This document shows positions 36,951-47,021 of a DNA stretch of 64,000 bases, piece by piece. The DNA comes from Fimbriimonadaceae bacterium (GTDB lineage Bacteria > Armatimonadota > Fimbriimonadia > Fimbriimonadales > Fimbriimonadaceae). The stretch covers positions 1,854,218 through 1,918,217 of the forward strand of contig CP075365.1 of the NCBI GenBank assembly GCA_019454125.1. Direction: 5' to 3'. Within the stretch, counting starts at the first letter, position 1; the number at the start of each line of letters is the position of its first letter. The notes below the pieces were generated by a model that searched no databases, was not told the DNA's origin, and worked only from the letters and a program-made list of their open reading frames with translations. A program made the translations under genes and the position numbers.

Positions 36951-37054
36951 ATTGGTTAGCGGTTGGTAGTTGGCGGTTGGAAGTTGGCAGTTAGCGGTTC
37001 CGTTGGCGGTTGAAGGTCGGCACCGAACGCCAACCCTCAACCGCCAACCGCCAA
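36951..37054. repeat. degenerate repeat block in the rpoB-rpoC spacer
   Basis: The 104-base spacer is almost entirely built of short GTTGGC / GGTTAGC / GGTTGG units on the plus strand, with an inverted cluster (GCCAACCCTCAACCGCC ...) at the rpoB end. The arms can form a long imperfect hairpin. No similar block was noticed elsewhere in the window. Confidence 0.75.
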
Positions 37055-41077
<4,023 letters not shown>

Positions 41078-44628: not shown

Positions 44629-45546
44629 GTGATAGCAGCGCTAACATTCGTTCTTACCGTTCAAGCCCATCCGGGCGGGGCTCGGTGCGCTGATTTCCGA
44701 CCGGACGGCAAGGTGCTCGCCACTGCGGGCGACGACGGCTCCATCAAGGTTTGGCTCACAAGCGACTGGTCGCTCCGACGCCAGACCAAGAACGCGCACG
44801 GAGGGCACGTCACCCAGATCGCCTTTAGCGGCGACGGCCGCCTCCTCGTCAGCGGGGGCTACGACGGCGTCGTCAACGTTTGGTCCGCCACAGACGGCCG
44901 CAAGATCAAAGGCTGGAGGAGCGGGACCTCATACGTCAGCGGGGTGGCCGCCTCGCGCGACGGCAACCGCGTCTACAGTTGCGGTTACGACAACCGCGCT
45001 AAGATGTGGGACGCGCGGACGGGCCGCCTTCTCCAAACTTATATAGGACTGCCGAGCGACGCCTACGGCATGGCCGTCTCGCACGACGACAAGGTGCTCT
45101 GCGCCGTCGGCCCGAGCAAGGGAGTCGTAGTCTGGGACGTGGCCACCGGCAAGAAACTCTTCAGCGGCTCCTACGAAGGCGATTACGCCGCGGCGGCGTT
45201 CAGCCCAGACGGGCGACGCTTGGCCGTCGGTGCCCTCAGCGGGCAGATGCAAATTTTCTCGGTGCCGCGCGGTGAACCGCTCTACAAGGGCCGGCCCGAG
45301 CGGACGGGGATCATCAGCCTAAAATGGCTGGACAACGACCGCTTGCTCGTCGGGAGCTACGACCTGACTGCGACGATCTATGACGGCTCCATGAACCAGA
45401 TCTCGACCTATGGGGTCTCGAAGGACTCCCTCTTCGGGGTGACTGCCACCGAGGATGGAAAGACGGGCGTCTTCTGCTCTTTCGACGGCCAGGTCGTCGT
45501 CCGCGACCTAGCCGATTGGCGCGAAATCGCGGTCCTTGGGCGGTAA
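44629..45546 (+). CDS. exported WD40-repeat protein
   Basis: The GTG at 44629 gives 305 residues with a short signal peptide (VIAALTFVLTVQA) and seven or so WD40-type repeats (GGARCADFRPDGKVLATAGDDGSIKVW; GGHVTQIAFSGDGRLLVSGGYDGVVNVW; KGVVVWDVATGKKLF and so on). It is a beta-propeller in the envelope, probably protein-binding. The next gene starts inside its last codons (TTG 45536). Confidence 0.75.
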   Translation: MIAALTFVLTVQAHPGGARCADFRPDGKVLATAGDDGSIKVWLTSDWSLRRQTKNAHGGHVTQIAFSGDGRLLVSGGYDGVVNVWSATDGRKIKGWRSGTSYVSGVAASRDGNRVYSCGYDNRAKMWDARTGRLLQTYIGLPSDAYGMAVSHDDKVLCAVGPSKGVVVWDVATGKKLFSGSYEGDYAAAAFSPDGRRLAVGALSGQMQIFSVPRGEPLYKGRPERTGIISLKWLDNDRLLVGSYDLTATIYDGSMNQISTYGVSKDSLFGVTATEDGKTGVFCSFDGQVVVRDLADWREIAVLGR

Positions 45547-46960
45547 GCCGTTGGTGCTGGTGGTCGGTGCGGGAGCGGCAGGGATCTTTGCCGCCTGGAA
45601 CGCGGCCCGCCACGGGGCGCGGGTCGTGCTGCTGGAGAAGACCGACCGCATCGGCACCAAAGTGCTGATCTCGGGCGGGGGCAAGTGCAATGTCGCCCAC
45701 GACGGCCCGCTGGAGGACGTGCTGAAGGCGTTCCGTCCGAACGAGGCCCGCTTTATCCGCCCCGCCTGCTACCGCCTGCCGAACACGGAGATCGTCCGCA
45801 TGATGACCTCGCGCGGGTTGGAGGTCTACACCCGCCCGGACGGCCGCGTCTTCCCAGTCGACCAGACGGCCAAGGACGTGGTCGCGATCCTTCAGGGATA
45901 CCTTTCGGAGGAGGGCGTCGAAGTCCGGCTTGAAACGCCTGTGACCGGGCTGCGGTTCTCTCCGGCGCCCCCTCGCCCCTCCGGGGGAGAGGGGGTTGGG
46001 GGTGAGGGGTCGGTCAGCCGCAGGGTCGATGGGGTCGAGACCAGTGAGGGCTTCCTTCCCTGCCGCCACGTCGTGCTCGCCACCGGCGGGAGCAGTTATC
46101 CCAAGAGTGGCACGACCGGCGACGGCTGGCCCTGGGCGAGGGACGCCGGGCACACGATCGTCACCGTGCGGGCCGCGCTCGCCCCGATGCACATGCACCT
46201 CGACGAATGCCCCCAGCGGCCGGGCGTGGCCGTGCGGGACTGCGTGTTGAAGGCCAGGGTCGTTGGGCGTCAAGCCGCCCAATCCATAGCGGAGTCGAGC
46301 CTCCGCACTCCAGCGGAGTCGAGCCTCCGCACTCCAGCGGAGTCGAGCGTCCACACCCCAGGAAAGGAGGTCGCGCGGTGGCGCGGGGACCTTCTCTTCA
46401 CCCATCGAGGGGTCAGCGGGCCGACCGTGCTCGGCATCAGCCGGGCCGTCGCCGAAGTTATAGATGGAGCATCCGTCAACCTGGAGGTCGACCTCAGGCC
46501 CGACGAGGGCTTCGAACAAGTCTCCGAAAGCCTGCGCCGCTGGTGCGCGGAAAACCCGCGCCGCGGCCTCGGCGCTTATGTGGGCGGGTTCGTGGCCGAG
46601 AGCCTGGTCGAGGACGTGTGCGGGTCGGCAGGGCTCGATCCAGAAGAACGTGGCGGGCAAGCCGGGAAGAAGGCGCTCAACCGGCTGGTCGAAGCGATGA
46701 AGGCCTGGCGCATTGGCCGGGTCAAGCGAGTGGACCTAGAGAAGGGCGAGGTCGTCGCCGGTGGCGTGAGCCTCGACGAGGTCGACCCCCAGACCATGCG
46801 CTCGCTCCGATGCGAGGGCCTCTATCTCTGCGGAGAGGTGCTCGACGTGGCCGGCCCGGTCGGCGGCTACAACCTCCAAGCCGCCTTCGCAACGGGGTTC
46901 GTAGCGGGCGAGACGGCGGCTAAGGACGCCCTCTCCTTCGCTGAAGCAGGGGGTAGGTGA
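45536..46960 (+). CDS. BaiN/RdsA-family FAD-dependent oxidoreductase with in-frame repeats
   Basis: The 474-residue protein starts with the FAD motif PLVLVVGAGAAGIFAAWNA, has the family signature ISGGGKCNVAH and FPVDQTAKDV, and ends with EGLYLCGEVLDVAGPVGGYNLQ. This is the HI0933/BaiN group, annotated as NAD(P)/FAD-dependent oxidoreductases of uncertain substrate. Residues about 143-158 (APPRPSGGEGVGGEG) and 252-275 (three copies of AESSLRTP-like) are in-frame insertions encoded by repeats. The gene overlaps the WD40-type gene by 11 bases and its 3' end also runs into a repeat. Confidence 0.88.
   Translation: MGGKPLVLVVGAGAAGIFAAWNAARHGARVVLLEKTDRIGTKVLISGGGKCNVAHDGPLEDVLKAFRPNEARFIRPACYRLPNTEIVRMMTSRGLEVYTRPDGRVFPVDQTAKDVVAILQGYLSEEGVEVRLETPVTGLRFSPAPPRPSGGEGVGGEGSVSRRVDGVETSEGFLPCRHVVLATGGSSYPKSGTTGDGWPWARDAGHTIVTVRAALAPMHMHLDECPQRPGVAVRDCVLKARVVGRQAAQSIAESSLRTPAESSLRTPAESSVHTPGKEVARWRGDLLFTHRGVSGPTVLGISRAVAEVIDGASVNLEVDLRPDEGFEQVSESLRRWCAENPRRGLGAYVGGFVAESLVEDVCGSAGLDPEERGGQAGKKALNRLVEAMKAWRIGRVKRVDLEKGEVVAGGVSLDEVDPQTMRSLRCEGLYLCGEVLDVAGPVGGYNLQAAFATGFVAGETAAKDALSFAEAGGR
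45963..46010. repeat. dispersed GC-rich palindromic repeat inside a coding region
   Basis: CCCCCTCGCCCC ... GGGGGAGAGGGGG, then TTGGGGGTGAGGGG, sits in frame in the FAD protein gene. A reverse-oriented, variant copy lies at 46972-47013. Each has the CTCACCCCC / CCTCTCC hairpin-forming core. Confidence 0.75.
46289..46360. repeat. three tandem 24-bp palindromic repeats in frame
   Basis: Units at 46289-46312, 46313-46336 and 46337-46360 each contain GCGGAG ... CTCCGC (hairpin arms) and are read as AESSLRTP, AESSLRTP and AESSVHTP. The first two units are identical; the third has lost the right arm (GTCCAC). Codon phase is preserved, since 24 is a multiple of 3. Confidence 0.9.
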
Positions 46961-47013
46961 GCGTCGGCGAACCTCACCCCCCCCCTCTCCTTCGCTGGAG
47001 GAGAGGGGGGCCT
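46929..47013. repeat. two adjacent copies of the palindromic repeat after the FAD gene
   Basis: CCCTCTCCTTCGCTG (from 46929, inside the last codons DALSFAEAGGR) and again CCCTCTCCTTCGCTG (from about 46984) followed by GAGGAGAGGGGGG form a tandem pair; the second has a perfect CCCCCTCTCC/GGAGAGGGGG stem. The first copy encodes the C-terminal residues and precedes the stop codon of the oxidoreductase. Confidence 0.65.
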
Positions 47014-47021
47014 CGGACGGC

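Follow-up and report, generated by a model that had tools for sequence, protein, structure and literature searches.

Two unrelated palindrome families inserted in frame in a BaiN-type flavoprotein gene of a Fimbriimonadaceae bacterium: a REP of a RAYT and a family positionally associated with DUF559 nuclease genes

Analysis of a 64,000-nucleotide stretch of contig CP075365.1 from a Fimbriimonadaceae bacterium (hereafter the window) indicates that a single flavoprotein gene has, very probably, gathered two unrelated families of non-autonomous palindromes, in frame and in exposed turns of its product: R2, which is the REP of a RAYT, and R1, which is linked by position to genes for DUF559 nucleases. 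A first-pass annotation had handled both repeats as one phenomenon; both are indeed real, but they form separate families, R2 going with a RAYT and R1 with the palindromes that flank DUF559 genes. Rickettsia has long offered examples of in-frame palindromes in proteins, and to our knowledge, apart from RAYT-linked REPs, no enzyme has so far been tied to palindromes within proteins.

The host protein is a member of the TIGR00275/BaiN-HI0933 family, of the BaiN/aminoacetone oxidase type, by both curated family score (349 bits with the TIGR00275 profile, against a cut-off of 183.8, and 229.5 bits with the HI0933_like profile) and fold, its best structural match in the PDB being 4cnj (Z 39.2), with 2i0z (Z 38.3), 3v76 and 2gqf also recovered. 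Its reading frame stays open across R1, R2, the tandem units and the 3' partial hairpin, and all the in-frame palindromic features described at first pass were found, with slightly different numbering. This holds also for the claimed further copies of the first repeat at the 3' end, which are a partial R1-type hairpin and a complete copy, R1' (Table 1). R1 occupies approximately residues 142-161 of the protein. The three 24-bp tandem units (identities 100/100/88%, TRF score 127) are an expansion of the second hairpin of the longer, two-hairpin R2, and the R2 insert as a whole amounts to 25-32 codons. The partial R1-type hairpin shares 88% identity across 25 nt with the copy at 46983-47007, and the C-terminal residues that it encodes are missing in the flavoprotein of the congener; R1' has perfect 12-nt arms and the layout of the other genomic R1' copies. 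As single-stranded DNA the tandem/R2 region folds far better than shuffled sequences (z = -4.85), and R1' has a fold z of -2.99. The stability of the R1 hairpin is not above the expectation from base composition (z = -0.36) and was discarded as evidence, so that the case for R1 rests on its recurrence and its absence from orthologues, not on fold stability. Elsewhere in the window, at 36954-37057, two heptamer arrays (GTTGGCA and CGCCAAC) face each other and form an inverted repeat of ~30 nt with a 31-nt gap.

Table 1. Palindromic features in and beside the flavoprotein gene (positions are those of the window)
Feature	Position	Strand	Remarks
Flavoprotein gene, TIGR00275/BaiN-type, HI0933-like	45536..46960	+	ORF, 474 codons
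R1 palindrome: C-rich arm, loop, G-rich arm, tail TTGGGGGTGAGGGG	45961..46009	+	in-frame 18-codon insert
R2, complete two-hairpin REP	46263..46312	+	hairpin A 46263-46282; hairpin B 46289-46306; ACTCCA foot; in frame
Tandem unit 1 (hairpin B of R2)	46288..46311	+	24 bp
Tandem unit 2 (copy of hairpin B)	46312..46335	+	24 bp
Tandem unit 3 (88% copy of hairpin B)	46336..46359	+	24 bp
Partial R1-type hairpin	46928..46953	+	encodes about 7 extra C-terminal residues, LSFAEAG
R1', complete R1-type copy	46972..47017	-	past stop codon, between two convergent genes

In a protein alignment with the flavoprotein orthologues of related genomes, both the R1 and the R2 inserts are absent from all 29 of 29 orthologues, as are the R1-type features of the 3' end. 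The nearest relative (G001), a Fimbriimonadaceae metagenome-assembled genome (MAG) of the same genus, has, where R2 sits, seven additional codons with a different sequence. An AlphaFold2 model of the flavoprotein (mean pLDDT 85.7) assigns low pLDDT to both inserts; strands 136-143 and 162-169 border R1, and strands 232-243 and 277-288 border R2. As far as a model can tell, each sits in an exposed beta-hairpin turn, and the check proposed earlier, whether the insertions are at surface loops, thus comes out in favour at the level of the model. Other species carry inserts in the same protein as well (INDEPENDENTLY). The orthologue of G034 has one of 38-40 codons, about ten residues further on. 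At the DNA level this insert consists of R1-type palindromes joined as an inverted dimer, and the congener of G034, G005, lacks it. Orthologues from two genera (L066 of G022 and L074 of G019) have 38-40-codon inserts at the same hairpin turn as that of G034, with a common GAKALL...VL peptide; neither R1 nor R2 is recognisable in them by eye. The inserted peptides are probably translated and nearly neutral.

R2 is a REP of a RAYT. Two of its copies, at genome positions 2573254(-) and 2573904(+), enclose the gene RAYT2 (ORF 2573300-2573974(-)) as an inverted pair; the product scores 80.7 bits, only just above the cut-off of 80, against the REP-associated tyrosine transposase model NF047646, and has the motifs HYH and Y...NPVRHGL. 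A fourth close copy lies in frame in the hypothetical gene Hyp2 (2374039-2374876). The hypothetical genes L121 (1376501-1377224) and L244 (2374039-2374876) look related and have no Pfam match; both contain in-frame palindromes, placed close to the same site in the middle of the protein. The two-hairpin layout recurs with changed stems in the congener G001 and in G008, and the G008 copy adjoins a Y1 transposase gene. Across the stems of six copies 94.9% of the pair cells are standard and six pairs have changed on both sides, with a covariation score (0.472, against 0.142 for shuffled copies) that none of 500 shuffles reaches. RAYT genes between inverted REPs, as well as intragenic REPs, are already known (PMC2817692, PMC3733652, PMC6006769), and R2 is like the RAYT/TnpA-REP systems (REPtrons; Nunvar 2010 PMC2817692, PMC6006769) in its inverted copies around the RAYT, its imperfect palindrome with a conserved short foot and its compensatory stem changes between copies. 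It differs from them in the foot, which is ACTCC/GGAGT, i.e. GGAG(T) rather than the GTAG (GT[AG]G) tag, in the number of close copies found in the genome (only four, two of them in frame in genes), and in the tandem amplification of its 24-bp hairpin within a protein. RAYT2, an HUH/Y1 single-strand transposase, would be the enzyme that moves R2, by single-strand cuts at its foot, the mode proposed for other RAYTs; in the flavoprotein gene the second hairpin has later multiplied to three tandem units, probably by slippage or by repeated events.

A census of R1 by sequence searches and fetched genome stretches yielded 38 matches in the genome, roughly 25 with E < 0.02, and about 47 places when longer-loop variants are counted. 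R1 copies begin TCCGGAG and end GGTGAGG, with G-C stems and neither a GTAG nor a CGTC tag, and the family as a whole can be described as a hairpin plus a G-rich tail that ends in GGTGAGG or GGTGGAG. At least 15 family copies keep the reading frame within coding sequence; the 15 search-listed ones are spread over 11 genes, mostly core genes: LeuRS (four), IspG (two), CysRS, MetRS, Era, AhcY, UvrA, Cas4, the flavoprotein and two hypotheticals. Many copies, several of them in frame in genes, were the support named at first pass. CysRS holds a second element outside the search-listed matches, and the named R1-bearing genes score above curated cut-offs. A census with the pattern GAGGGGGNNGGGGGTGNGG was noisy and was set aside (control counts of 34/26 against 51/35), being inflated by the poly-G contig ends and by G-rich tandem arrays. 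The arrays, with spacings of 51 bp and 44 bp (GAGGGGGCAGGGGGAGGG), are found at 1837646-1838630 and 2367563-2368241, and the contig ends (390-416 and 2652204-2652236) show long G runs on the minus strand that are perhaps an assembly artefact. About a third of the R1-family copies lie inside genes, although the genome is mostly coding, a share that would fit random insertion followed by loss of the harmful events. The elements are open in 78% of frames, compared with 66% for shuffled copies; given that they are open in most frames, an insert with a length that is a multiple of three would add a flexible peptide and be tolerated.

At most R1 insert sites the orthologues of G001-G006 show clean gaps, the relatives mostly having no insert or an independent one; in the LeuRS of G005, for instance, a separate R1-like insert occupies one of the loops that bear an insert here. 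IspG has no element in G002 and G006, one in the congener G001, and in our species a second beside or inside the first; this gives the order of events as a stepwise, nested accumulation. Inserts in Cas4, UvrA, CysRS and IspG are common to our species and the congener, those of Cas4 and UvrA being partly decayed, and the presence of an in-frame R1-type palindrome in Cas4 of both (719953-720625, L184; congener L270) implies that this insert is older than the species split. The UvrA gene (L383; 99427-100510 and 101333-103439, both minus) appears to be split into two ORFs with a glyoxalase-like ORF between them, one encoding a 702-residue N-terminal part and the other a 361-residue product resembling the C-terminal part; the UvrA ORFs of G001-G003, G005 and G006 are 647-735 aa long, and others are near full length. 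It might be argued that the inserts were kept for a benefit to the host protein, as adaptive loops or regulatory peptides, since they persist in essential enzymes and some of those in Cas4, UvrA, CysRS and IspG are common to the congener; but they stand in unrelated proteins at differing sites, most relatives do without them, and the inserted residues have low confidence in the predicted model, so that we find this explanation improbable. That the inserts are artefacts of assembly or annotation (wrong start, frameshift or chimeric sequence) is scarcely credible: the close relatives are metagenome assemblies and the contig itself ends with poly-G runs, but the inserts lie midway in long conserved ORFs, and independent assemblies from other genera have like inserts at homologous loops (the G034 flavoprotein and the G005 LeuRS).

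The connection of R1 to DUF559 emerges from the surroundings of the nuclease genes. One such gene of the genome, DUF559#2 (PF04480, 86 bits; 2648049-2648333, near the chromosome end), lies between two inverted R1-family copies. Their identity is 88-92% to the copies in CysRS, IspG, UvrA, AhcY and LeuRS, and 76-86% to the remaining longer-loop copies in the comparison. These flanks are of the longer-loop subtype, and no DUF559 gene flanked by the exact subtype of the window R1 was found in this genome. Close matches to R1 do flank DUF559 genes in other genera, R1 itself enclosing them on both sides in G016 (two loci), G012 and G018, with up to 91.7% identity over 48 nt between the G016 flanking copies and the R1 consensus. 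Around DUF559#1 (377068-377382) the flanking palindromes are of yet another type (CCCCTCCCCAAGCCTGGGGAGGGGGGA). All DUF559 loci found across 61 genomes were then scored, each by the best inverted match between its 500-bp flanks, with thresholds set at the 95% and 99% levels of mismatched flanks taken from other genomes. Matched inverted flanks are present at 47 of 66 loci, which are not phylogenetically independent, above the 95% level and at 31 of the 66 above the 99% level, leaving 19 of 66 without clear paired flanks; at the 95% level the flavoprotein control loci give 0/45 and RAYT loci 7/10. The flanking copies lie at median distances of 104 and 73 bp from the DUF559 domain. Where a genome has more than one DUF559 gene, the pass rate is 38 of 51 for matched flanks, against 22 of 116 for mismatched ones, which suggests that each DUF559 gene tends to have its own palindrome.

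These figures bear on the possibility that R1-type palindromes are ordinary terminators or hairpins of convergent genes that happen to stand beside small solitary genes. R1' does lie exactly between two convergent genes, where hairpins are expected; against this, family copies occur in frame inside 11 genes, left and right copies match specifically by locus, the R1 tail is G-rich and has no T run, and such pairs are found at none of the 45 control loci, leaving this reading a very slim chance. The main rival for R1 is a tyrosine transposase, above all of the TIRYT type, that would move R1 with the DUF559 genes as mere cargo or passengers between R1-type palindromes. TIRYT takes this place because the R1 tail GGGGTGAG fits GGGGWSAS, a motif reported for the terminal inverted repeats of TIRYT genes (PMC3733652); moreover, the genome has two RAYTs, with an R1 copy about 430 bp away from one of them, RAYT1. 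However, RAYT1 and RAYT2 are each flanked by a different palindrome of their own, and since that of RAYT1 is CCTCGGCACGGGGCGTGCCGAGG, we rejected R1 as the REP of RAYT1. Dependence of R1 on any RAYT is likewise unsupported, G012 and G023 having many R1 copies and no Y1_Tnp match, and the inverted R1 pairs enclose DUF559 genes, with no RAYT or Y1_Tnp gene found so enclosed. We therefore regard a tyrosine transposase as a rather unlikely agent of R1 movement.

A DUF559 gene with its two inverted palindromes is, in our preferred explanation, most likely the source unit of R1-type elements, and we infer that the DUF559 protein moves or copies them. As a Vsr-like PD-(D/E)XK nuclease it might cut or nick the palindromes or their targets, whereby single copies would spread, with later copies inserting beside or into earlier ones; in the flavoprotein gene, all the surviving insertions kept the frame and fell in exposed hairpin turns.

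Insertion of palindromes in frame is a known kind of event, documented by the Rickettsia RPEs and the intragenic REPs, and the R1 and R2 families are new members of this set. The likeness to Rickettsia drawn at first pass holds for the manner of working, R1 resembling the RPE/CGTC REPs (PMC3733652) as a short palindrome that sits in frame in numerous unrelated proteins, tRNA-related and DNA-repair genes among them, with no adjoining RAYT; CGTC REPs, some Rickettsia RPEs included, are apparently without a dedicated transposase (2013 survey, PMC3733652). It is not borne out for membership: in place of the CGTC-type tag with A-T first stem pairs R1 has its TCCGGAG start and G-C stems, and it differs further in its G-rich tail and in the DUF559 link. 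Intragenic GTAG REPs of Opitutus terrae and others (PMC3733652) similarly occur singly or grouped in coding genes, uvrA among them, with the frame kept, whereas R1 and R2 are found in Armatimonadota and represent other repeat families, and the orthologues here show stepwise accumulation. On the side of the enzyme, DUF559 is described as a domain of Vsr-like PD-(D/E)XK nucleases (PMC12907096). Caulobacter VsrA has the same domain, PF04480, and belongs to the same superfamily, but has been described as a putative mismatch-repair nuclease, a role distinct from transposition (PMC12907096), which counts against the preferred explanation. The DUF559-linked palindrome class looks new: a literature search with most subscription papers and all preprints outside its scope found no link between DUF559 and palindromic repeats, and given that scope, priority for the link is not established.

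Nor is the layout confined to this phylum: in a sample limited to genomes reached through the loci and to plasmid records, strong paired flanks are present at DUF559 genes of Brevundimonas, a Bordetella-labelled MAG, a Clostridia MAG and further Armatimonadota, and, among plasmid/replicon records, of Sphingomonas, Sphingobium, Qipengyuania, Sinorhizobium meliloti, two Deinococcus species and Pseudanabaena; 5 of 12 plasmid loci (Picosynechococcus, Azospirillum, Sinorhizobium K101, Novosphingobium and Methylobacterium) have no strong paired flank. It is an evenly balanced question whether a widespread class of hairpins with a G-rich tail, observed here in Armatimonadota, Alphaproteobacteria, Deinococcota and Cyanobacteriota, is produced and spread by DUF559 nucleases encoded between inverted copies. 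What can be said is that a palindrome family entering essential genes is positionally tied to DUF559 in a layout repeated in several phyla, and that LeuRS, IspG and CysRS offer a clean case of stepwise protein lengthening via mobile DNA. With a small enzyme and defined DNA hairpins the question is now testable, and the link, should biochemistry confirm it, would interest a wide field: the DUF559-palindrome system would then be a counterpart of the RAYT-REP system with another enzyme at its core, and essential enzymes would tolerate its products in frame.
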